This document shows, piece after piece, positions 1,676 through 55,837 of a stretch of DNA of 64,000 bases (position 1 is the stretch's first letter; every line of letters starts with the position of its first letter). This DNA is from Tieghemostelium lacteum (lineage: Eukaryota; Evosea; Eumycetozoa; Dictyosteliales; Raperosteliaceae): positions 81,396-145,395 of the forward strand of contig LODT01000032.1 in the NCBI GenBank assembly GCA_001606155.1. Reading direction: 5' to 3'. Made by a program: the position numbers and the translations under genes. Below the pieces are notes generated by a model. That model was given only the letters and a program-made list of their open reading frames with translations, ran no database searches and was not told the DNA's origin.

Positions 1676-4600
1676 ATGACTACAGCTTTAGACCAACAAT
1701 TAAAAATCATTAAACAAAAGATTCACTATGTAGATCAGAGTACAAAACGTGATTCACTATTGTTTGATCCTACAGAGGCAGCATCTATCGACATTGATAC
1801 ATACTATGAAATTGGTATGCAAGGTCTGAAAGAACTAATTGGATTAGATAGTCGATTTAAAGGTTTCGAACAGACATTGTTCTCTCCAACTAGTATCTCT
1901 GAAAACAGAATACTAAAGACTGAACAAGAGAATCAAAAGATTAATATTGAAATTAATGAATTTCTCAGATTGCAATCCAATTACTTTCTGTTGAATTCAG
2001 CCCAAAAGGCATTGGAATGGCTAATTAGAAGATATAGAATTAATGAATTCAATATAGATCAAATTATATCTTCAATCATCCCATTCCACGATTCTAATAT
2101 ATTTGCTAAATTTATTTCCATTTTACAATTAGAGTATGTATTTTAAACTATCAAAATTGATTTTTTGAGAAAAACATACTAAGTTTTTCCCCCTTCCAAT
2201 TACGAATAGTTTTAATGAAAAATGGAAAATATTAGAAAATATAGTAAAGAGTAAATTATCAGTTCCCAGAGGATATTTTATTACAATATGTAAAAACAAT
2301 CAATTCTTTTTAGAGTTTTTATGTAATACCATAGTAGAATACGAAAAGTCAGATATGATTTCAAAGACATTGATTTCATTTTTTACAGCATTGATTATTG
2401 AAACTTTATCTACCATGAATACAGTACCAACAAAATTCCTAAGAGCTCTATTACCAACTTTAAATTTTTCATTAAAATCAAAACAATTAGATTTACAAGT
2501 AAGTATATTTAAATATTAATACTTTTCGAAAGTGAAAAAGTGCACAGTAACATCATATTAAAATTTTCATTTCTTTAAGCTTGGAGCATTTATGATTATT
2601 GGTGATATTGCTAGTAAGACTCAATTCAAAGACGAAATTATTGAATTATTTTTTATAAATACTCTAAAAAACTATAGGAACTCTCTACAAGAATCATTTA
2701 CCTTTTTAATAGTCCTTTTCCAAAAACAAAATTTTAAATTATCCAATTCAACTTTGGAATTGTTAATTTCAATACCGTATGTATAATATTTAATTATTAA
2801 CTATATTTTAGGATATTAATATATATTTTTTTAATTATAACAATAGAACATTATTTGATTTATTAAATGATTTAAATTCACAAAACAAAAATTTGGATAA
2901 ATTATTTTCAATTTTGATTGAATATCTGTCGAGTAATTTCATTGAATCATCAGAATGTTTTTTGTTATTGAATCAATTCATTACTGAATTGCCACAGGTT
3001 ACTGGTAGATTCCAAAAGATTATCATTCAGAATATATTGGAACAACAGTATATAAAGAAACAAGTGCCTCTTGATAAGGAAAATCAAGATGTTGTTTTGG
3101 GTCTTTTGAGATCATTGGATCCAATGGTACTTCAAGAGGAATTTGAAAGATACCAACACCGTTACAGTAAAGATGAAATCTCAGAGAAACTAAATCAACT
3201 ACACAGTCAAGTCTTATTGAAAAAGACAATTAGTAAGATTAAATCCAATGAGATATTTTTACAATTACAGTCAACAATATCATCTGAACGTATAAAAGGT
3301 CTGAAACAATTGAAATCACTGTTGGAGAAGAATCCTGATATTACAGATAGTGGTTATTCACTATCATCTTCATTGGCTCAGGTATTGGTTGAAAAAGATT
3401 CTGAAATCTCTAGATTTGCATGGAAACTACCTGGTCTCATTCATTTGGTACACATTGATGCATTGACACAATCTGCCAGTCAGTGTATTGAAAGTAATTA
3501 CCTGTCATTGGATGATAAGAAATTCATAGTCTCTTTATTAGCTTCTGATAAGGAATTCCAAAAATCTAATCAAAGCGCTCTTTTAAAGGTTCTATTCCCA
3601 CATTTGATTAGCACTGATCTAAATCAAGAGATTCTAAAAAGTCTTGCAAGTCTTTTACCATCACTATTCAAGGGTATTAAAGATAGTAGTTCATTGTCAA
3701 CCCTGTTCCAAGGAATCAACAAAAACTATACATCATCACCATCAGAGGCTAACAAATTCATTAGTGACTATCTTAAAGAGTACCAATTCACAAAATCATT
3801 TCAAAATAACATTTCAAATAATGATTTGGTAGTTTTATTTTTGATTCTCAGTGGTCAACAAGCACTAGATGCTACTATGGTTGCTGTGGTATTTAATTTC
3901 ATAAATTCATTTTTGGACTCTTATAATGATTCATTTAGTCTGGTGATTAAAGAGATATCATCACCTACTGATTTGTACAAGTACACATCAGATCCATTAT
4001 CCATCATTATGAATAGCTTCTGTATGATAATTAAACAACTTCCATCCATAGCAGTAACTGAAATTCAAAAGTATCTCTTAACAGTTTTCTCTAAAAAGTC
4101 ATCAGAACAACAACAATACCAAATTCTCACAGGTATCAGACAACTCATTGAGAATATTTTCAATTCAAAGATTGAATGCATTGATCTAATACTCAGACAA
4201 CTCATTAGAAAGTATTTCAGTAACCAATTGGTATACTTTAAATTCCTTACACTATTCTGGGTACAACCAAACAACACCACCAATAATAATCTAATTATAT
4301 CATCATTGTCATTATTGAAATATCTCATTCCATCCAAATCATTCCAAATTCATCTTCAACAACAGAGAAATCAAATCATCCTCCCATTCCTATTATTATT
4401 AAACTATCAATGTAAAGATATACGTTCAAGCTCTTTACAGTTATTAGAATTGATTAATGAGACTTCAACAAATAGTAATAATAGTACTACAACTTCAACC
4501 AATAATGATTTTAAATTTTATAATAACAGTTCAACTATTCAATCTATTAATTCAAAATTGGTTAGTCAATTTTTAGGATTGATTTTGAAATATAAATTGG

Positions 4601-6897
4601 AAATTCAATCAGATTCTGAATTCTTTAAGACATTTATAAAGAATATTGTATTGACCCAATCCGAGTTAAAAGTTGATATTGCTAAATATCTAGTTGAAGG
4701 TTTACTATTGATGGAGAGTCAAGATCAGAAACTATTGTTACTGAAAGCCATTCAAGATTGTCAAGATTCTTATATAGTAACTACAACATTACCATTGCTA
4801 CAAGAACTATTCCAAAGTTACAAGAGTAAAACAATTAGCATTGTGGAATGTTCATTATTGGATATTCTCATTAGAAAACTATGTAATCTATCTGTAATGG
4901 GTCAGAGTAAATTGAGAAAATCACATAATCTCTTACAAGTCTACATTGATATTCTTTCAACTAAACATGATAGTCTAATGACATGGCCAAGTGGAAGTCA
5001 ATACAGTATATTGACTGTTTCCATCTCATCAATTACCAAACAACTAGTCATCTCACTGGCACTGAAAGAACAAATTCAGTTGGTTGAATTGTTACTTGCT
5101 CATTTGTTATCTGAAAATACTGAAATTCGTGAAGTTGCTAGAAAAGTTTTATTAAGTATTCTAGATGATTCAACAACAATTTTACCAATGATTACTGTAA
5201 ATGCCAAGAGTACTACACCATTACCTATTCCACAGTACAATTCTATGATGGAGATTTTGATAATCAATAGTGAGAGAATTCAAAATCCAATTATACTCTA
5301 TACACCAATGATTGGTATTTTAAAGAGATTTAATCAACAATCAGCTTCAGATGCTACAGAATATTGTAAACAATTGATATTCAGAGCTATGGTTAGTTTA
5401 ACTAAAGTATTGGAAAAGAATAGTAAAGAACTATCTACTCTTGAACAACTGTTGGATATTCAAACTATTGTTCAAAGTATTGGTACTAATCTTCAAACTT
5501 GTAACTCTGCAATGATTCTATTGCAGGTTGTAAGTAGTAACTTCCCATTGAAGATTTATAAGTCCATTGATGGTATTATATCATTGATAAAGTTCATTTT
5601 GGGTAATAGTCAAAATCATGATAATCAGACTATTATGAATTTGGAGGGTTTCATTTCAAGTCTCTTCCCAGCACTATTAAAGAGTACTACATCCAATGTC
5701 ACATTGACTACTATATTCAAATTGTTTATTGACAGTTTTAATACAATGTCTAAAGATCATCAAGTAGTTTTATTGGTAAATCTAATGAAATCTATTCAAT
5801 ATCAACAATTGAATTTATTATTGACTCTAATTCTAACTAGAAAGATTCAATTGTTACGTGATATCACTTTGGCATTGAAGAAGGATGATTCTACAATGAT
5901 GGTTGATTCCAATAAATCAGATGATCCTATGGAAGAAGATAATGAACAACAGTCACCACTAGAGAAACAATTGGATACTTTGAATGCATTCATTAGAGAA
6001 TTCTCAGAACAGATTCCAGTAATCTCTCTAACCAGCTCATTGACAATGGTTTCAAGATCTTTGAATTTTATCTCTTTGGAAAATGGTACTGTAGAACAAG
6101 AACAACAACAACAGAATTCACATTCTGATAAGGAAATGATTCAACTACTATCATATAACTCTGCTAAAGATAATAGATTACTCCAAGCCTCATTGTTGGA
6201 TTTCATTAATGAACGTTTATCATCCAGTAAATATCTTGAAGAAGTTGCATTCCTAGATCATGATGCTAAATCTCAAATTGAAACACACTACATGAATTCA
6301 TTTGAAAATCTTTTGGTTCTTTTAAAGAAGACATCAGAATCATTGGAAATTTCTACTGGTAGCTCCTCTAGTAGTAAAGGTAAAGAGAAATATCTCAAGA
6401 AATTACAATCATCAATTCACTTGTGTATGGATAAATATAATCAATTATTAAGTGTACCTGGTTTCATTGTAACTGTCAGTAAACTATTAAATCATCAAGA
6501 TTCATCAGTACGTCGTAGATCATTAGTAATCTTTAATGAAAAGATTAGTATGGTACGTGCACAACATTTAGAAGAGTCACATGTCACACTCTTTATATCA
6601 CTACTCTCTGACTTCTCTAAAATTATTGATACACCTACAGAAACTGAAACCAACAAACAAACTGCATTGCTCAGTTTTGAAATTTTGGCTAGAAATTTCT
6701 CAACACATTCACCACAAGTTTTCCTACAAAAGATTGCATCGATCATCAAAGCTATGGGACATAGTAGTTATCAAGTGGTATCTTCAGCAATCATTTGTAT
6801 TGCTACACTATGTTCTGAATTACAATCAAAAACCATTCCATACATTCCACAATTCTTCCCAGTCATTCTTAATACTCTAGTTAGTTCACAAAAACTT

Positions 6898-23571: not shown

Positions 23572-23644
23572 GCTTTTATGGCTCAGTCGGCAGAGCGAGC
23601 GGCTGTTAACCGCTAGGTCAGTGGTTCGATCCCACTTAAAAGCG
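23572..23644 (+). tRNA. tRNA-Asn (anticodon GTT)
   Basis: A complete 73-nt cloverleaf folds by eye. Acceptor stem GCTTTTA pairs with TAAAAGC (23637-23643), discriminator G; D stem GCTC/GAGC; anticodon stem AGCGG/CCGCT with loop CTGTTAA and anticodon GTT at 23605-23607; T stem AGTGG/CCACT with loop TTCGATC. The internal Pol III A box (TGGCTCAGTCGG) and B box (GGTTCGATCCC) are intact. There is no intron. It sits between a retroelement remnant and the left end of an inverted-repeat transposon. Confidence 0.97.
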
Positions 23645-23650
23645 ATCACT

Positions 23651-23655
23651 TTTTG
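23651..23655 (+). terminator. Pol III terminator of tRNA-Asn
   Basis: A T5 run begins 7 bp after the tRNA 3' end, as expected for RNA polymerase III termination. The left inverted repeat of the transposon begins 9 bp beyond it, so the insertion left the tRNA transcription unit whole. Confidence 0.8.
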
Positions 23656-23664
23656 TTCAACGAC

Positions 23665-23790
23665 CTCTGAATTTTTGGTGTTTTGCTCCTGGAATGCCCA
23701 GTTATGTATTTATATGGTAAAAATACAAAATACAAAAATTTGGTTTATTCTGTCGTAAAAATCAAAAATATCCAAAAAATCTTTTTTGTA
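23665..23790 (+). repeat. Left terminal inverted repeat
   Basis: Begins CTCTGAATTTTTGGTG. It matches the reverse complement of 28425-28544 with only a few mismatches and small gaps. It contains no ORF and precedes the first transposon ATG by about 160 bp, so it probably also holds the promoter. Confidence 0.92.
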
Positions 23791-23952
23791 ACCTTTGGAG
23801 TGAATCTATTTTTTTTTAAATAAGCCACCAAACTAAATTTCTTTGCTCCACTGTGGCTCTCAAACACAAATATAATTAATTTGAAATCACCTATATATTT
23901 TTTATTTAATATTTTTAATATAAATTTTTTTGTATCATATTATATTTTCTTA

Positions 23953-24189
23953 ATGAATAGTAGTTATAATGAGAGTTTGGTAAATTCACAGCAAGTGAAT
24001 GATAGGATTACTGATGGAGATACAGCACAAGAGACGAATGAATTTGAAGAAATTGAAGCTGGGTTACTTTTGTCCAGTCTCTCACAAATAGCTGATATTA
24101 GAGAATCTATAGTGGTGAATGAGCTGATAAACAGAGAGGAGATTATTGACACAGAAGTTATAAGACAGACTGAGAGTAGTATTAGTAGC

Positions 24190-24220
<31 letters not shown>

Positions 24221-24807
24221 GTAATAGTAATGATGAATTTGTTAGCACCCAGGCAATGTTGTATGAAGATATTATAGAATCTTACCCTGATTTGTTAAGC
24301 AAAAAGAACGAGTCACTAATGAAAAAGATATTTGGATCCAGACAAGCACAGGAAGCACTTACAGAAGGGGACCATTTAAAAGCTTATCAAGCTGAATTGG
24401 ACAGTTTAATTGGTTCGAAGGAAGGAGAATACTTTTGTAAAGTGGATGGCTGCCAAATAACAAGCAAGAAAATGTATAATGCTCGTAGACATGTGTGGAG
24501 GAATCACTACACTCTAGTACAAGAAAAGAGAGAACAGATACCTTTAATGCCAGGAGCTCCCAAAATCATAGTTCCTGAGGATCACGTTAAATGCGAACAT
24601 ATTGGATGCAAAGTAGTGGTTGTAAAAAGCAACTATTCCAACCATAGTGTAACTGAACATCATGGTGGTGTTCCTGATTTCGATTGCTCTAGTTGTCCAA
24701 AGTGCAATAAAATAAAATATAAAATATATAGACTTATTAATCTTAAGAGATTCAACCAAACATCCAATACAAGTAAGTATAATTACCAACCAGAATTACA
24801 GATGTAA
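23953..24807 (+). CDS. Transposon ORF1: double C2H2-type zinc-finger protein
   Basis: About 284 residues from ATG 23953; the frame upstream to 23881 has only a TTG. The N-terminal half is acidic with an Asn run. Two C2H2-like fingers follow: C-x4-C-x12-H-x4-H (CKVDGCQ...RRHVWRNH) and C-x4-C-x11-H-x4-H (CEHIGCK...NHSVTEH), then a further CPKC. Such fingers are usual DNA-binding modules of transposases. A GTAAGT at 24773 looks like a splice donor, but joining it to the next ORF does not keep frame with the acceptors I can see. ORF1 is therefore either a separate protein or separated from the transposase by a frameshift. A partial inverted copy of residues around EGDHLKAYQ lies at 28081-28195. 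Confidence 0.65.
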
Positions 24808-24926
24808 TATAATAGGCATAGTTTTAGCTAATGACATAAACTCTTAGATCCATCTCTAGAAACAATTGCACTTTCAAAATAACTAATAGAATACCAGATC
24901 ACAAGTGGGAAAAGAGTTTAGTGCAT

Positions 24927-27644
24927 ATGGGTTTAAGCACAGTGAAGTACAGTTTAATTGCTATAAAAACCTATAATAATAATTTGATTAGTCAGGGGTT
25001 AAGTTTAATAGGATTTGAGAAAGGTACATACCTGCCAACTGAACAGACTATTATTAAATTCTTTCAGGAAGAGTATCCAAATCATCTTCAACCAAGGCAA
25101 GGACCTAGATTTGACCACTACAGATCACTTGGTCTGGAAAACAACGAAGATATCATTGTGATGATTGCACATGCAGATGGTGCTACAATGACAAAGAATA
25201 GGACCAATGAGCAAGTAATTGCAACATTTCAATTTGCTGATAATAATAAAACATTGGCAGCTGTTAAATCACCGAAAGACTCTTATATCTTCATGATATA
25301 CCTTGGTAGAGAGACTACTGAAGAATTGGCAAGTGGAATGTCAGAGTTTACCCGTAAACATCTATTAAAATCGACAAACATTCTAACAACGACCAGTGGT
25401 AATAGAATAGGATATAAGTTAGTTACTATTGATGAAAAGGAATACAAAGTGTTCACATTGTTTAGCTTTGATCTCGCGTTGCTGGTTGTTATCTTGGGAC
25501 TGTGTGCAGTATATCAATCACAATCTGAATACCGTTGTGCACATTGCAAATGTTACAGTTTATCAATCAATAACTTTAGTAACCAATGCTTCTTTAAATG
25601 GAGAACCCACAAAGATAACCTTATTCACCATAAATATGGAGGATCAACACCCAAAATGAAAATTGGTATGAAATCACATCCAGTTTTACCAATCGATCCA
25701 ATTAATATAGTTATTGATGATTTACATATGACCATGGGTGTAGTAAAATTCTTTTTAAAACCTCTTTTGGAAGGTGTTGATTCAAACCTTGAACTCACAA
25801 AAGATCTAGAGTCATTCTTTAAGAAAAAAGCTAAATTAAATTTGTCAGGTTTTTTTAGTGCTATAAATGTAAGAACCGGAACAGTATACACATTGAAAGA
25901 AAAATTTACAAAAGCAGCAGTAAATTATGGAGAATATATCAGAACAATTGTCAGCAATGTACAGTTGATGGAGGTTTTTCGCAAACATAATCACTTTGAT
26001 GAAATAAAATTTGAAAATGTAAGTATATATTCAAATATAGCTTCTATAGTATTATTATGATGATCATTTACTTACTTGCTTCTGTTGATGTTAATATAGA
26101 TATCTAAATTATTAAAACAAGTTCATTTTCTACTTGCTCTTTGTAAATGGGATCACAAACCAAATACAATATTTGATTATCAATGGTTGTATCTCACCAA
26201 GATAGTGGGTGATCAATTACGACTTTCATTTTGTAACTTTAAAGAGTTGTACTGGTTGGATCACTATATAGAAATATTACCAAACCATTTTTGTAAAAAA
26301 ATAGTTAAAAAGAAGCGTCAGCAGCAAGCTAGTGAGAATTCCAACTCGGAGAAGAGACTAGCAACTAGTGTTCAGTCTACTTTACCAGTTGTAACATCAT
26401 CCAATGTACCATCTCGATCAACTATACCAATTATACTCCGTTCCAATACATCTGCTACACCTCTATCATTATCATCTAGATCAATTACACCCATTGATCT
26501 CTCTTCCAATACATCATCTCCATTTCCATCATTACCACCAACTACTACACAAAGTGTTATTGCATATAATTCTAATAATAATAATAATAATAATAGCAAC
26601 AACACCTTTGCTAATTCTACTACTACCACTACTACTACGACTACACATGAATCCATTCCAGTACCAAATGATGATGTTGATGATGACACTTTACCCAAAG
26701 GTCAAAAGGTTTCTACCTATGTTCATTATTTTTTAAAGCACACTGGTTTCTATCTTGAACATTATGGCTCCCTGACTAGATACTCAATGACTTCCACTGA
26801 GGGAAAACATAAAGAGAATAGGGTTCTTAAAGACTCTTGCACCAATAAATATAACTTGAACAAAAGAAAGGAAGAACAAAAAAAAACCAAGGATATAACC
26901 AGTCAAACAATTAAATTGTCTGCTCTTAGTTCCATTCATGCCAATCATGCTACCAGTAATGAAATTGAATATATCTCCATCACTGATGATTCACCTGTTG
27001 ATGATTTTATAACCAAGTTTATGAATCCATATGACCAACAACTCTTTTCATTACCCTATCTATTCGGTATTCAAAGATTATCTGAGATTCCAAATCTACC
27101 TATTTCACGTCCAACCTATTTATTGGGTGATAACATAGAGTGTATGTCAATTCTTAATGATAATGACTATTTAGGATGGAACAGTGGGGTGGTTATCAAT
27201 TATCAATATATCAATAATAATAAGTTTTCTTATTCTGTTGTCTATCATATGTTAGTATTTAAATTGTTTAAGATGATTGTCAACTACCGATGACAAATGA
27301 CTGTTTATTAATTAATAAACCTACCAATCTCCTCTAACAACAGGGATAATAACCAAATAGAGACCAATATTCCACAGTACAGATTGGCATTTACCCCAGA
27401 GGGAATTATTCCATCATTAGATAAAGTTGATGTCAATTCAGTGATATTAATCAGTAACCCTAAACCTATAAAGTATTATGCTGCAAAAGTTTTAAGTAAA
27501 GATACTAACAATAATTTATTCACATTTCAATATCTTCACAACAAGAAAGAAGATAAAAGAAATTTTGATCAAAGTAAACGTTATATTATTCCACTCCTGC
27601 ACAATGATATAGCAGACTTGATAACTTTTTTGGACAAAAAGTGA
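24927..27644 (+). CDS. Transposon ORF2: DDE-like (RNase H-fold) transposase candidate
   Basis: Three exons join in phase: 24927-26018, 26100-27250 and 27344-27644, about 847 residues. Signals that recall DDE transposases are, in order: IAHADGATMTK (first acid), FSFDLALLVVILGL (second acid before a hydrophobic run), a CAHCKC pair, DDLHMTMGVVKFFLKPLL, and, after a Ser/Thr/Asn-rich insert, YVHYFLKHTGFYLEHYGSLTRYSMTSTEGKH, where a C-terminal glutamate would be expected. The last exon (FQYLHNKKEDKRNF) looks like a small terminal domain. The start is uncertain: the frame is open upstream of 24927 for about 80 bases. Transposase function is inferred from this layout plus the inverted repeats. Confidence 0.6.
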
Positions 27645-28080
27645 AAAAAATCAAAAAAAAAATTAAAAACTTAAACAATTTTATATGTATTATTCCACTC
27701 CAACACAACTTTTACATTTATTACTTATATCCTAATCTGAATTAATAAATATTGTATAAATACCTAATAAAAACGTAAATAAACATTACAACCTGATATA
27801 TTTTATATTTCTTGCAATTTCTGAAAAGCTTGGATTTATAATTCCTCACTCTTTACATCTTCCACCAATTACAATATCCTATGGAAATCTTATACCAATC
27901 ATCACCATATGATGAGTGGAGTAATATTATCTCTATAAATATACAAATAGAACCATACCTATAAAACTTGTAAATTTCTAAATTATGCATTTTACAACAA
28001 AATTTTAAAAAATCAAGATTATTTGGTCTATGAGAAACCATCATAATTTAAATAGTTGGTGGTAATGATAAAGATTGTAT
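27645..28080. other. Transposon 3' region, no assignable gene
   Basis: AT-rich sequence after the transposase stop. A minus-strand 63-codon frame (27853-28044, including LKFCCKMHNLEIYKFYRY) has a faint resemblance to dictyostelid repeat-family proteins but has no clear start, splice sites or domain. I treat it as unassigned. Confidence 0.5.
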
Positions 28081-28370
28081 TGGCCATCCCTTTTACAAAA
28101 GTAATATCCTTCATTTCGACCAATTTATTAATTGAACCGTCCAATTCATCTTGATAAGCTTTTAAATGGTCCCCTTCTGAAAGAGCCTCTTGTGGTTCTT
28201 CTGCTTCAACACATTCACCTGCCATATCATTGTGCAGGAGTGGAAGAATATAACGTTTACTTTGATCAAAATAGGTAGATTTGGAATCTCAGATAATCTT
28301 TGAATACCGAATAGATAGGGTAATGAAAGAGTTGTTGGTCACTGATAGTATGGACTCATAAACTTAGTTA
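28081..28370 (-). repeat. Shuffled inverted fragments of the transposon genes
   Basis: Three blocks are reverse-complement copies of internal transposon sequence: 28081-28195 matches about 24345-24465 (ORF1, EGDHLKAYQ region), 28224-28272 matches about 27562-27610 (ORF2 last exon), and 28269-28370 matches about 27008-27108 (ORF2, FGIQRLSEI region). Read on the minus strand the blocks are in the order ORF2, ORF2 end, ORF1, so this is not a simple internal deletion. Confidence 0.85.
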
Positions 28371-28424
28371 TACAAACATCGTTTAGTTTTTATATTTATC
28401 CAATACGTTTACACTACAGTGTTT

Positions 28425-28544
28425 ACAAAAAGATTTTTTGGATATTTTTGATTTTTTAGAATAAACCAAATTTTTGTATTTCGTATTTTTACCATATAAA
28501 TACATAACTGGGCATTCCAGGAGCAAAACACCAAAAATTCAGAG
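28425..28544 (-). repeat. Right terminal inverted repeat
   Basis: Reverse complement of the left repeat. Outside it the sequence shows no similarity to the left flank. It ends 180 bp before the stop codon of the next minus-strand gene. Confidence 0.92.
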
Positions 28545-28723
28545 CCCTTCGAAATAAAATTATTTTGCTCCGGAAGATAGTTTTGCATTTTTGAAAAAAT
28601 TTCATTCGAAAATATGAAAAATAATTTTTTTTTTGAAAAAATATAACAAAAAGAAAGATATAATAGAAAAGGTGTAAAAAGATTTTTTTATTAATCAAGA
28701 AAAGAGGAAATAAGAATAAAACT

Positions 28724-49309: not shown

Positions 49310-49888
49310 TTAACTTAGATATAAGAATGGTGGTGGATTATTTGGAATACCAACTAGATCAGTATCAAATAATTCAATAAATTGTTCATTTAATAATTTA
49401 ACTTTACTACCAGCAAATCTTCGGTATTCTTCAAAGATGGATGTGAGATTCCATCTTTGTAGTTTTCTTAGACATCCAACAACAGTACCTGTCCTATGTC
49501 TTCCAAGATTACACATTACCATGAGAGGATAACTCTCTGGATTTAATATAATTTTTAGAGCACTAATTACAATTTCCTCTGATATTGGATTCCAAGGATT
49601 TTGATGTGTATCCATTCCTAAATGTATTAATTCTATATCTTGATCTTCTACAAAATTCTGACTATTATTATTATTATTATTCTATAGTAAATATATTTAT
49701 AGTTCAACTTTTAATAGATATCAAAACAAAACATACAACTGTTGTGATGGATCATCTGGGGCTAAAAATATGATTTTTTTTAATTGTAGTTTTTCGAGAA
49801 ATGGAAAGTTTAGTTCATTAGGTTGACCTGACCTATATAGATCATCAGCTACCATGCCAAAGTTTAAAGGTGGTATATGATGTGCCAT
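49310..49888 (-). CDS. Oca1/Siw14-type atypical dual-specificity phosphatase
   Basis: Two minus-strand exons, 49888-49737 and 49661-49310, 167 residues. The acceptor within the AAT-repeat region restores the frame (...PSQQFQNFVEDQDIELIHLG). Landmarks: LNFGMVADDLYRSGQPNELNFPFLEKL, IIFLAPDDP, and the catalytic loop MCNLGRHRTG, a C-x5-R signature of cysteine phosphatases, then GCLRKLQRWNLTSIFEEYRRF. This is the plant and fungal atypical DSP family; several members act on inositol pyrophosphates, and yeast Oca1 belongs to a complex of such proteins. The NLG loop is Oca1-like rather than Siw14-like (KRG). Divergent from AP-1 gamma with a 133 bp gap. Confidence 0.9.
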
Positions 49889-50021
49889 TGTAATATAAAA
49901 AAACTCTAAAATGTGTGGTGGAACTTCTATTAATTAACTGAGGTTGCAAAAATGAAATTTGAAAAAAAAAATTAATCTTTATTTTTTTTTTGTTTTTATC
50001 AAAGATATCGCTTTTCATAAT

Positions 50022-52759
50022 ATGTCTGTTAAATTAAGAGATTTAATTAAAACAGTTAGAAGTTGCAAAACTGCAGCAGAGGAGAGAGCTCAGATTGCTA
50101 GAGAATCAGCTCAGATTCGTACTGGTATGAAAGAGGAAGATGTAGAATCAAGACAGAGAAATGTTGCAAAATTACTATACATTCACATGTTGGGTTATCC
50201 AACTCAATTTGGTCAAATGGAATGTCTAAAGCTTATTGTTTCACCATCTTATGCTGATAAAAGAATTGGATATTTAGGACTCATGTTATTATTAGATGAA
50301 AAACAAGAAGTCTTATTACTAGCAACCAATTGTATGAGACAGTATGTATTATCAACTCTAAATCCCTCATTTTATGTTTGTTTAAAGCAAAACAAATCTA
50401 ATTATAACCTAATTTTAATTTATAAATTACTACTAGTGATTTATATAATGTAAATCAATTTATAGTTGGATTATCATTATGTGCATTAGGTAATATATGT
50501 TCACAATCAATGGCAAGAGATATTGCACCTGATGTTGAAAAATTATTAGCACATTCCAATCCATATATTAGAAAGAAGGCTGCATTGTGTGCAATTAGAA
50601 TACTAAGAAAAGTACCTGATTTAGTTGAAAATTTTATTCCAAAGATTAAAGCATTGTTATCAGAGAGAAATCATGGTGTAATTTTAACAGCTTTAACTTT
50701 GATTATTGAAATTTGTGAAATGGATAAATCTCAAATTGTTCAATTTAAAAAGGTGAGGAATTATTGATAGAAATTAATTAAAACAATCTATTATTAACAT
50801 ATTTAAAATTATTATTATTATTATTATTATTTAAAGATGGTACCACAATTGGTTAGAATATTAAAAAGTTTAGTATCATCAGGGTATTTACCTGAACATG
50901 ATGTATCTGGTGTTACAGATCCATTTTTACAGGTTAAAATATTAAGACTCTTAAGAATTCTCGGACAAAATGATGCAGAGGCATCTGATCAAATGAATGA
51001 TATTTTGGCACAGGTTGCAACTAATACTGACAGTACAAAGAATGTTGGTAATGCAATTTTGTATGAATGTGTCCAAACTATTATGGCTGTAGAATCTGAA
51101 AATGGTCTAAAAGTTATGGCTATTAATATTCTAGGTAGATTCCTTCTTAATAGAGATAATAATATTCGTTATGTAGCCTTAAACACATTAAGTAAGGTAG
51201 TAAACACTGATATTCAAGCTGTTCAGAGACATAGAAATACTATTGTTGAATGTCTTAAAGATCCAGATGTATCTATTCGTTGTAGAGCTTTGGATTTAAT
51301 CTATTCATTGGTTACTGAATCTAATATCAGAGTATTGGTTAGAGAGTTACTAAATTTCCTATTGATATCCGATGCACAGTTCAAGGCTGAATTAGTTGCC
51401 AAATTATGTATTGTCACTGAGAAATATGCACCAAACAAAAGATGGCATATTGATACTATCCTACGTGTCATGTCAATTGCTGGTAATTTTATCCCTGATG
51501 AAGTACCCTCCAATTTGGTACAATTAATTTCATCTTCTCCAGAGTTATCAAGCTATGCCGTTCAAAAGTTTTATTTGGCTTTGGCTCAGGATATCTCTCA
51601 ACAACCACTCACTCAAGTTGCACTCTGGTGTATTGGTGAGTATGGTGACTTATTGGTAATGGATAAATCTCAATTACCAAAGGATGAAGAAGGTCTTGCA
51701 ATTCAAGTATCTGAAACCAATGTAATGGAATTGATTGAATCTATTTTTAAACATCCATCCACCAATCAAGTTACTCGTCAATACACCCTTACCACTCTGG
51801 TTAAATTATCTACACGTTTCTCCCAAGCCTCTATTCACAGAATTAAATCTCTCATTGATATTTTCAAAGTTAATATCAATTTGGAATTACAACAACGTGC
51901 TTGTGAATATTCTACTTTATTCCAATATGATATTAAATCTCAAATTTTAGAAAAAATGCCACCAATCGAAAAACCAGAAGAATCACCACATTCAACTAAA
52001 TCATCTTCTCATCAATCTACACCACAACAACAATATCAACAACAACAATATAATCAACAACAAAATGGATCTGGTGTAGGATCGTTATTAGAAGATTTAA
52101 CAAGTCCAACAACACCAACAGTAAATCAAACAAATAATGGTAACCAAACTTTATCATTACTTGAAGATATCTTTGGACCACCACCAACACTTGGATCCAA
52201 TTCAAATTCACAACAAAATACACCAAAACCAACTAATAGTGGTGGTATGGGTGGATTATTAGATTTAGATTTGAATTTGACACCATCTAATATGTCAAAT
52301 CCAACTACACCATCTTATCAACAACAACAATCAAATAATAGTAGTAGTAATAGTAATAGTTTAGCTGGACAATTCCAAGACATGTCACTTCAACCAGTAC
52401 CAAAACCAATATCAATTCCAGCATTCCAGAAATATGGTATTGAAATTAATTATGATTGTTCTAAACCACAACCAAATAACTTATCATTGACTAATATCAA
52501 TATAACTATTAGTAACACTTCCCAGGTAACCATTACAAACTTTTCATTGAAAGCTGCCGTTCCACAATATCTAAAAATTCAATTACTTCCACCATCAGGC
52601 ACCACTTTGGCTCCAAACAGCGAAGTAACTCAAAATGTAAAAGTTTTAAATTCTCTACAGGGTCAAAAACCAATTCTTCTCAGAATTAAGGTTGACTTCC
52701 AAATGAATGGTCAATCTTATAATGAGGTTGCTGATACTCCTTTACCATCAACTTTTTAA
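50022..52759 (+). CDS. ap1g1: AP-1 complex subunit gamma (gamma-adaptin)
   Basis: Large subunit of the clathrin adaptor AP-1, which sorts cargo between the trans-Golgi network and endosomes or contractile vacuole. Exons 50022-50341, 50437-50752 and 50837-52759 give 852 residues (human 822). The first intron joins NCMRHD to [17 protein letters not shown], matching the family exactly. Trunk landmarks: [79 protein letters not shown] and [10 protein letters not shown] Gln/Asn-rich hinge (about 615-730) is followed by a gamma-ear domain ([14 protein letters not shown]...[13 protein letters not shown]...PLPSTF). Confidence 0.97.
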
Positions 52760-52895
52760 AAAAAAAAACAAACTCACAACTGTTATAATTATCTCTTTTT
52801 TGTTTAATAGTAATAAAATTATTATTTAGGTATTTATATAAAGACAAACCTTTAAATTTATTATTTACAAATATGATAATATTCAAAAACAAAGA

Positions 52896-53756
52896 TTATT
52901 TATAATCTTGTAATTGTATTGGTGCGTATTGAGGTGGTAATTGTATACCATTTGGATTACCAGCAACATATGCTGGAGGTGGTGGTTTTAGAGATGGAGA
53001 GGGTAATGGTACTGGAGATGTTGATGAAAATAGTTGAGAGGGATGATGGAAATTACCAAAGTTTGTAGGATTTTTGAGAGTACTTTGGTATTTTTCTAAT
53101 TTTTTTTGTAATATTAATTTTTGTTTTTCAACACCCAGTATTTGTTGAAATAGTGAAAGTGATTCCGATTCTTTTTGTTTACATAGGTCTCTATATTTTT
53201 GCACTTCAGTCAAAGTTTTACTTCTTGCTTCTACTAACTTATTAATTTCTTGTTGATCTTGAATAGATAAATTTTGATCACCTGCTATCTGAAATGATGG
53301 ATTTGCAAGTTCTGATACTTTTTCTGGTTGTTTAATTAGATTATAAAATGATTCTGATGGATCTTGAAATACTATTACATCTAGAGTCTCTGAGACTACA
53401 GGTTGCCTACTACTTTTCATTCCTTCAGGAGGATGCAACCTCAGTAAATGAAATAAATCTAATGGTTTCTCTAGTGGATCTGTAAAATATACTGTAACTC
53501 CTAAATCAAACTCACCCCAACCGGTTTCTGACATTTCGAACGGAGCTTGTTCAACAACTCTATTTGGATTTTTAAAACTTTGATGTAAATGAAATACGAC
53601 CTTTTTTACAAACGGTAGTTCTTCATTGTTCATCCCTCTTATATATGCTGTCCATCTATGTGTATGTGCACTACCATCAATCTTCTTTTGAAGTACACTT
53701 GATATAGAACCAATAACAATTGGTCTTTCAAATGTACCTTTGACTCTTTTTACCAT
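52896..53756 (-). CDS. yeats4: YEATS-domain protein, GAS41/YEATS4/Yaf9 homolog
   Basis: Histone acyl-lysine reader shared by the SWR1/SRCAP and NuA4/TIP60 complexes. Starts at ATG 53756 (MVKRVKGTFERPIVIG); the longer open frame begins on TTG. 286 residues. YEATS core: HTHRWTAYIRG, VKKVVFHLHQSFKNPNRVVEQAPFEMSETGWGEFDL, YFTDPLEKPLDLFHLLRL, then VVSETLDVIVFQDPSE, as in GAS41. A predicted coiled coil follows (LVEARSKTLTEVQKYRDLCKQKE), then a Pro-rich tail. It lies 82 bp downstream of a SNF2-family remodeller on the same strand, and converges on AP-1 gamma. Confidence 0.93.
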   Translation of the reverse strand: MVKRVKGTFERPIVIGSISSVLQKKIDGSAHTHRWTAYIRGMNNEELPFVKKVVFHLHQSFKNPNRVVEQAPFEMSETGWGEFDLGVTVYFTDPLEKPLDLFHLLRLHPPEGMKSSRQPVVSETLDVIVFQDPSESFYNLIKQPEKVSELANPSFQIAGDQNLSIQDQQEINKLVEARSKTLTEVQKYRDLCKQKESESLSLFQQILGVEKQKLILQKKLEKYQSTLKNPTNFGNFHHPSQLFSSTSPVPLPSPSLKPPPPAYVAGNPNGIQLPPQYAPIQLQDYK

Positions 53757-53838
53757 TCCAAATATGAACAAACAAATCAAAAAAATATTGCATAAAAAAT
53801 GTAAAAAAAAATAAAAAAGATAGATGGATTAAGAGTTT

Positions 53839-55837
53839 TTATTTTGGTAAAACAGCATCTAACATTTTTATAAACAATTTTGAAGTTAATTTTTTACTAT
53901 CATCTTGCTCCTCTTGAGCAAAAGCACCTTCTTCCAGAATAGAATCATTTAATTTCTTTTTTTCATTTGATAAATTATTAATGTGAATATCAACAGTATT
54001 CTCAGTTAATAATTTATAGATTCTAACTTCTTTTTCTTGACCAAGACGATGAGCTCTATCTTCAGCTTGTCTATCAACTTGTGGATTAAAAGAAGAGTCA
54101 TAAAAGACAACAACATTAGCACAGGTTAAATTAATACCAAGACCTCCAGCACCAGTTGACAATAAAAATATAGGAATATCTTTTGATGATCCAAAATTAT
54201 CAATGATGGATTGTCTTTCAATAACTGGTGTTCCACCATCTAATCTACAAAACTGGTATCCAAATATTACCAAAACCTCTTCAAGAATATCCAAAACTCT
54301 AGTCATTTGAGAAAAAATCAAAACTTTGGAATGGTTTTGATTAATTTCTTTATCTAATATCTCACTAAGTCTTTGCATTTTGGTAGAGGACTGAATAAGA
54401 GTTTCATTAGATAATACATAGTCTTTCATTTCATTTTCCTTTGCAATCTGGTGCAAATTAAAATCAGAGTATTCTTCAAAAATCTCTTCCATGTCAGCTC
54501 TGCTATAGTCGTGGTAGATTTCATTTTGCATTACTTTATCAATAATGTTTGATACTTGTTCTGCTTGGTAAAATAGTCTTTTCATTAGTAATGGATGATT
54601 AGATATCTTTCTCAGTTCCATCAAAACATTACTGAGTACCAATTGCTTTGATTGTACTTTTGGTTTTCTACCTCTTGATTTTGTATTCATATCCTCATTA
54701 AAATCAATATCAACACTAATTTGGATATTTTCATCTTCTTCCTTTTGCTGCTGATCCTGTTGCTGCGATGGTTTCTTTCTTTTTTTAATACCATTACCTT
54801 GATTCCATTCCTTTTCACGTTCTTTATTTTCAATTTCCATTTGATGTATTTTCGATTTGGATTGTGTTACCAAATTCTGATAAAATGCTTCTTGTTGGCT
54901 TGACATTTTACAGAATTCTAAAATTTCTACTTTTGGAAGTAGTTCTTGACTGACAGCACTCTTTAATCTACGTAGAATGAATGGTGAAAGAATTTTCTTC
55001 ATACGACTAACAATGGCATTCTTATTGTTATCGTTTAGTTCCAATAACTGTGCTAGCAGTGAATTATTTCTTGATCCTTCACCAAAAATGTGTGGCATTA
55101 AAAAGTTTAATAGTGCCCATAACTCATAGAGATTGTTTTGTAGTGGTGTTCCAGTCAGTAATAGACGATGTTTAGATACAATATTAAAAAGACTTTTATA
55201 TCTTTTTGAATCACTATTCTTTATATTCTGTGCTTCATCCAATATCAAATAGGAATACTGAAACTTTGACTTTAGGAATCCTCTATCTAAATTGGAAAAC
55301 ATGATATTATAGGTGGTAATAAGGATATTAAAATCCTCTTTAGGTTTTAGTGTCCTCAAATGATTTCTCTGATACTCCCTCTCCTTTTGATTGCCATAGT
55401 ATGTAAATACTTTTAGTCTAGAACACCATTTTTGTAACTCTCTTTCCCAATTACTAAGTGTTGTAGGTGGCACAACAATTAAATGAGGTCCATAATCTTT
55501 TTGGTGTTCATGGATGTAGGCAAGTAAACTAATAGTTTGTATAGTTTTACCCAAACCCATTTCATCTGCCAAAATACCATTGATATTTTCTTTATATAAT
55601 AGTGCTAACCAATTTAATCCAATTAACTGATAGGATCTCATCTTTTGTATATCCATTATTGATGGTTGTAAAATAATATCATGCTTATATTTTGTTGTTG
55701 TTGTTGTTGTTATATTATTATTATTATCTTGTGTTGATTTTATGTATTTTAATTCAATAGCTTTTAGAATATCAAACATTCTAGTTGAAAAATGTTCGCA
55801 AGCTGTAATTAATTTTTCAATAATGGGAGTTTCATCG

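Follow-up and report, generated by a model that had tools for sequence, protein, structure and literature searches.

The window, a 64,000-nucleotide stretch of the Tieghemostelium lacteum genome (C27:81396-145395; Cnn denotes a contig and Lnnn, for example L013, a fetched genomic locus), harbors a transfer RNA (tRNA) gene for Asn that is directly followed by a copy of a mobile element with an intron-bearing gene. Whole-genome searches covered the window's own genome, which comprises 23.3 Mb in 43 contigs. Existing copies of the element are inserted downstream of tRNA genes with specific position and orientation: 22 of the 24 non-tandem intact left ends have a tRNA gene on the same strand 18-48 bp before them, and the left end faces the tRNA in all 22, giving a single orientation. 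An earlier note, made from the letters of this DNA, had proposed an uncharacterised DNA-level element linked to tRNA genes, a proposal that these 22 left ends strongly support. The element family is undescribed within the open-access literature searched.

The tRNA-Asn locus and its rearranged element copy

At the left boundary, the anatomy follows the earlier reading. The tRNA-Asn gene lies just 5' of the element, and the left arm starts just past a T5 run, the putative terminator of RNA polymerase III (Pol III) (Table 1). The right boundary was read differently by the earlier note, which had delimited the element as the span 23665-28544, closed by near-identical inverted repeats of about 120 bp. 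Such repeats do exist, pairing 23650-23751 with 28458-28559 (102 nt, 93% complementary) and 23757-23786 with 28427-28456 (30 nt, 100% complementary), but the right arm belongs, as a left end, to a fragment of another copy, so that the element is not this simple span. The 120-bp repeat was accordingly rejected as the two ends of a single element. The element's own right terminus follows this arm and is inverted compared with L010, L012, L013, L014, L016, and L022. The window copy is rearranged and probably inactive, one of a family of class II (DNA-level) transposons, and its right-end arrangement could have been produced by inverting an ordinary tandem, consisting of the right end of a new copy and the left end of an older one.

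The gene model was read from the uninterrupted colinear copy in L013, with splice sites assigned by inspection. It consists of one gene with four exons and three introns, and the L013 product comprises 1,144 amino acids. A finger-bearing open reading frame (ORF) and a separate gene of about 847 residues, as originally described, thus turn out to be parts of a single spliced gene, since the colinear L013 gene rules out two separate ones. In the window copy, a single-nucleotide frameshift interrupts the gene early in exon 2.

Table 1 Coordinates of the features in the window, and of a repeat found at other loci
Feature	Position	Strand	Basis
tRNA-Asn (GTT) gene, target	23572..23644	+	ARAGORN; coinciding RF00005 match (C27:104967-105039, 67.8 bits)
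T5 run, putative Pol III terminator, in the spacer between tRNA and element	23650..23654	+	sequence
Element left end, CCTCTGAATTTTTGG...	23664..23793	+	terminus common to 26/29 left-end matches
Exon 1: acidic N-terminus, two C2H2-like fingers	23953..24772	+	frames; colinear L013 gene
Exon 2: HADGA (D1), FSFD (D2), CxxC, DDLHM; frameshift near start	24848..26018	+	
Exon 3: low-complexity stretch, TEGKHKENR (proposed catalytic E), start of C-terminal module	26100..27250	+	
Exon 4: C-terminal module, weak Tudor-like match, stop codon	27344..27644	+	
Break: colinear with full-length copies before it; in those the right end comes directly	28024..28025	.	comparison with L010, L013
Scrambled piece of a second copy; its left end, 28425-28544, is the right repeat arm of the earlier note	28025..28544	-	
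Element right end, ...TTCGAAGGG read on the minus strand, inverted here	28545..28615	-	11 right-end matches genome-wide
Repeat TTGCTA(A/G)TTACACAGG	L027 ~4590-4660; L026 ~4760-4870 and 8429; L022 ~1000; L038 ~428		

Copies of the element and their tRNA genes

A left-end query of 137 bp, free of tRNA sequence, returned 29 matches across the genome, and the right end returned 11. The inverted repeat is therefore not an unrelated dispersed sequence, a possibility that the earlier note had set as a refuting test. The terminus is intact in 26 of the 29 left-end matches (start at most 5 bp from the terminus). Three matches beginning 17-27 bp inside the terminus (C21:849247, C43:45656, and C13:152948) were set aside; a tRNA-Lys lies upstream of the one on C43, and none was found for the other two. 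Two tandem left ends (window position 28544 and L014 position 4681) were also left out, resulting in the denominator of 24.

Comparison of the copies reveals a fixed left terminus, CCCTCTGAATTTTTGGTGTTTTGCTCCTGGAATG (shorter form CCCTCTGAA...), with one C fewer in the window copy, and a fixed right terminus, ...CTTCCGGAGCAAAATAATTTTATTTCGAAGGG, which differs from the left one. When the left end is set against the inverted right end, CCCT..GAA and TTTTGCTCC-GGAA are common to both, and little else. An exact search for the 11-mer CCCTCTGAATT gave 23 genomic sites, compared to a single one for a reversed-pattern control. Nineteen of the 23 are left ends, one of them a remnant, and 17 of these left-end sites lie near a tRNA; the remaining four are unrelated sequence, none of which is near a tRNA. 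Seven copies have both ends, with a length of about 4.4 kb in L010, L012, and L013 and of 1.8-2.3 kb, following internal deletion, in L008, L014, L016, and L022. The near-full-length copies are 95-99% alike, and their 1-kb upstream flanks are unlike, save for one pair that shares a long terminal repeat (LTR) retroelement.

Of the 22 tRNAs, 21 were identified by ARAGORN, with a mean spacing of 26.0 bp (standard deviation 7.2) to the left end. They represent 12 anticodons: Met (four), Asn (three), Glu, Thr, Leu-TAG, and Arg (two each), and Ser, Leu-CAA, Leu-AAG, Trp, Lys, and Val (one each). The tRNA of L010, 34 bp upstream, was found by Rfam (44.2 bits, gathering score 29). A run of four or more T residues (T4+) separates the tRNA from the left end in all 21 measured copies. 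Both copies in L015, as well as L024 together with L025, look like shared blocks, which reduces the set to about 20 independent events. A first look at the genome yielded 1,668 tRNA candidates, 63 of which were scored. Even under the generous bound that all 1,668 are tRNA genes, a random site would fall within a 31-bp same-strand interval about once in 900, and 22 of 24 is therefore not due to chance. The right ends are placed differently: for the nine of 11 examined, the nearest ARAGORN tRNA is at least 1,705 bp away in eight and absent from the ninth locus, distances that refer to the fetched stretch (the L008 sequence reaches 72 bp beyond the right end). Other copies of the element thus do show the tie to tRNA genes whose absence the earlier note had named as refuting.

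Several loci bear traces of more than one insertion. In L014, only a few bases separate a right end from the left end that follows it, and in the window a right end and a left end adjoin directly. Furthermore, left-end-like remnants are found at most 14 bp past the right end in L012 (CTGAATTTTTGGTG) and L013 (CTGAATTTTT). Upon repeated insertion at one tRNA, a new copy would land between the tRNA and the older copy and thereby create junctions of right end and left end; such tandem junctions and remnants are expected if insertion is targeted to the same spot past the same tRNA.

As a separate observation, a second tRNA-Lys in L019 (L019:8412-8600; C31:788532) is followed 47 bp downstream by a left-end remnant, ACCCTCTGAATTT, with no further element sequence seen at that locus. 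The remnant looks like either a footprint or a heavily deleted copy.

All three introns are kept in all five near-full-length copies (L009 is cut off on the right by the edge of its contig), the third intron being compared without its 5'-most 8 bp. In three of these five copies (L009, L010, and L012), an internal segment corresponding to window positions 25027-25707 is inverted and is edged by 52-bp inverted repeats. This may be an inherited rearrangement, a template switch, or an assembly effect. In L010 and L012, exon 1 is also shortened to 77 codons. The three copies with a disrupted gene are 98.7-99.0% alike and reside at three different tRNAs, which suggests that they moved in trans; an assembly effect at the inversion is also possible.

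The encoded protein and its paralogues

The motifs quoted in the earlier note (HADGAT, CxxC, DDLHM, and LEHYGS...TEGKH) are present in the translation. Its two C2H2 fingers are borne out as Cys/His patterns in the N-terminus, assigned by eye, but not as a match to any hidden Markov model (HMM). At the C-terminus, PF09465 LBR_tudor is matched below the cut-off (E 0.21), and the paralogue piece on C15 has sub-cutoff matches to Agenet (0.043) and Tudor_KDM3B (0.11).

Two distant paralogues, C26:410329-412542 and C15 ~49500-54300, share 31-34% identity in the aligned core. In the three-way alignment, HxDGA is kept in both pieces that cover the region, and the D in KxYxVxxxxxxD is invariant. Further conserved are CxxC, [DE]xLHMxMGxVK, VNYxE, and YxHxFxxHxGxxxExxGxLxRxSxxxxExxHKxNR. 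The second aspartate (D2), the LHM, and the E are thus invariant in all three paralogues, and the first aspartate (D1) in the two covering pieces. A D-D-(DxLH)-E pattern, as in a DDE transposase, is plausible on the basis of this alignment, and unproven. The likeness to DDE transposases proposed in the earlier note gains from the residues conserved among the paralogues and from the introns in 5/5 copies, but it has no counterpart in an HMM match above the cut-off or a PDB match of note.

Pattern searches for relatives outside the genome gave 33 matches in viral contigs and 304 in genome contigs (bacteria and archaea only), none of which was confirmed in either set.

On C26 lies one divergent paralogue, whose exons are long and open (C26:408508-412998; L056, L052, and L051). 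A 3'-truncated tRNA-Lys (Rfam 37.9 bits, L056:809-863) ends about 300 bp before its first coding match. This paralogue may be an ancient relative of the element or may have been domesticated as a gene. Beside the C15 paralogue, an ORF at L055:2603-3013 shows a sub-cutoff match to HTH_Tnp_4 (E 2.2e-4) and, judged by this match, probably belongs to another DNA transposon.

Transposition, targeting, and related systems

We consider it likely that the copies form a class II family in which the DDE-like product of the intron-bearing gene serves as transposase and is brought to tRNA genes by a Pol III feature that these genes share. The product, with its C2H2-like fingers, DDE-like DxLH core, and C-terminal Tudor/Agenet-like modules, would act as a transposase at the DNA level. 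The attraction would come from a feature common to all tRNA genes, either TFIIIC/TFIIIB or Pol III at termination, rather than from the local insertion sequence. With moderate confidence, we incline to the wider view of a eukaryotic class II superfamily, whose transposase is unlike any in Pfam, is tethered to the Pol III machinery, and inserts in one orientation, in a span of about 30 bp immediately beyond the terminator, at almost any tRNA gene. We infer both the chemistry of the transposase and the Pol III tether.

A retroelement was rejected. The element exons have no reverse transcriptase match in Pfam, in a scan that does pick up RVT_1, just below the cut-off, in the retroelement of L009, and the introns are retained. 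Introns in 5/5 copies, together with the lack of a reverse transcriptase match, are indirect evidence of movement without an RNA intermediate, and the dispersed copies with both termini in common, internally deleted ones included, mark it as class II.

Several findings weigh against this main reading. The similarity between left and right termini is short, its local score of 22 being reached by 1.6% of 1000 shuffles. The left ends of L017 and L029 have no tRNA even at a permissive Rfam threshold, and no tRNA was found within the fetched 8 kb around the C15 paralogue. A clear target-site duplication is seen in only one of seven pairs, with nothing above 3 bp in five. The protein has no match above the cut-off in Pfam or NCBIfam; the lowest Pfam E value is 0.0036, for a sub-cutoff match of the N-terminus to Secretin_N_2. 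PHROGs yielded one unnamed family (E 0.012, one paralogue only), and sequence and profile searches of the PDB gave nothing of note (best E 0.31). AlphaFold models from single sequences were unusable, with predicted local distance difference test scores of 32 for exon 2 and 34 for the C-terminus. Finally, the aspartate of DxLH is replaced by E in the C26 paralogue.

The first alternative is a DNA-level element with a non-DDE recombinase or nuclease, which we regard as doubtful. Such an enzyme would account for irregular target-site duplications, in line with the five pairs that have none, and no transposase is recognisable in the protein. The acidic residues are nevertheless conserved in the order D-D-(DxxH)-E, a signature described in the accessible part of PMC8869645, and two of the seven valid left/right pairs show possible duplications. 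In L008, TTTGGA stands on both sides as an exact 6-bp match (flanks AAATTTTTTGGA and AATTTGGAGG), and in L016 TTTGTTTT and TTTGTATT agree by eye at seven of eight positions. Mismatched left and right flanks share at most 5 bp in 56 comparisons, which retain the flanks of L024, a pairing not counted among the seven. A target-site duplication of about 8 bp is thus possible, and unproven.

Direct DNA recognition, in which the fingers or another part of the protein recognise the B box or some other tRNA sequence and insertion follows at a set distance with no Pol III factor involved, appears unlikely. The B box is general in tRNA genes, its measured distance to the left end being 40-69 bp for 18 of 21 copies (the other three values are false hits in the spacer), and finger-like Cys/His patterns can be discerned in the protein. 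Against this, the distance from tRNA to element is not fixed but ranges over 30 bp, in each case beyond a T4+ run, so that a bound complex fits better than a rigid DNA footprint.

Random insertion without targeting, followed by survival only beside tRNA genes, is conceivable in a genome as small as 23.3 Mb, where many insertions would be harmful. We judge it very improbable, given the single orientation (22/22) within about 30 bp, the near absence of copies from other intergenic DNA, and the tandem re-insertion between tRNA and older copy. Duplication of tRNA and element as one block, which the two block-like pairs bring to mind, is hardly credible in view of 12 anticodons, varying spacers, and the dissimilar upstream flanks of those near-full-length copies that were compared, and is contradicted for most copies.

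In these organisms, targeting of tRNA genes is otherwise described for retrotransposons. The accessible part of PMC5006619 analyses retrotransposons in five dictyostelids, including D. lacteum, and describes retroelements that target tRNA genes, in agreement with what the earlier note had stated; TRE3 (~100 bp) and Skipper-2 (Df_Skipper-2 26-97 bp) are located downstream of them. TRE3, TRE5, DGLT-A, and Skipper-2 resemble the element in being position-specific near many tRNA genes. In contrast to the element, with its introns, putative inverted termini, and no recognisable reverse transcriptase, they encode reverse transcriptase, according to the same excerpts. The term 'DNA transposon' does not occur in the text of PMC5006619.

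Among DNA transposons, Dada elements insert inside small-RNA genes, as stated in the available sections of PMC3706591 and PMC8869645. As described there, they share with the element introns in most families, a DDE signature with DxxH between the second D and the E, zinc-binding cysteines, tRNA genes among their targets, and tandem insertions. By these descriptions, Dada elements use a specific site within the RNA gene, generate 6-7 bp duplications, and form families mostly tied to one or a few RNA genes, whereas the element lies 18-48 bp outside the gene, at 12 anticodons, and without regular duplications, a comparison drawn by description and not by sequence. Further marks of Dada are CCCC and CCHC fingers in the transposase. 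Membership in Dada was rejected, as the insertions lie outside and downstream of the tRNA gene. According to PMC5633606, the DNA transposases of D. discoideum lack significant similarity to known ones; Tdd, DDT, and Thug, compared by description only, are likewise dictyostelid class II elements, and the accessible portion of that paper mentions no tRNA targeting for them. The excerpts of PMC10085805 and PMC6875170 place no DNA transposon near tRNA genes, and that of PMC5911963 contains one general mention. Cut-and-paste targeting of tRNA genes, which according to the earlier note would be new, has a partial precedent in Dada, inside the RNA gene. A DNA transposon inserting near, not inside, tRNA genes was not recognised in the open-access literature searched, judged by titles, abstract openings, and excerpts, with subscription papers and preprints outside this scope.

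Retrotransposons in compact genomes classically use tRNA genes as safe harbours. If our reading is true, the element would be a DNA-transposon counterpart to Ty3, TRE, and Skipper targeting, an independent invention by DNA-only transposition, and placement by the Pol III machinery could arise on a quite different enzyme. It would also give a tractable group of amoebae a system that moves from DNA to DNA and lands at a multicopy, harmless site. For the tether there are concrete candidates in the finger-like and Tudor-like segments, so that the question of the tether can be tested directly. Bacterial Tn7 likewise keeps to one orientation and to a set distance from a conserved gene, downstream of which it inserts, using several proteins and a dedicated sequence-binding targeting protein. 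The resemblance lies in the outline of its working only and implies no homology.

Other mobile sequences accompany the element at some loci. A repeat ending in ...TTGCTA(A/G)TTACACAGG, followed by an A-run, occurs in or against left-end sequence (Table 1) and has the appearance of a non-LTR retroelement tail. Upstream of the tRNA-Ser of L009 (L009:4888-6999) and the tRNA-Glu of L012, 1,036 bp are common to both loci at 99.8% identity. The upstream ORF of L009 matches gag and aspartyl protease, and RVT_1 just below the cut-off (1.2e-6), which identifies an LTR retroelement upstream of both tRNAs. This position agrees with that of DGLT-A in D. lacteum in the accessible part of PMC5006619. At some loci, the tRNA gene is thus flanked by a retroelement upstream and by the DNA element downstream.

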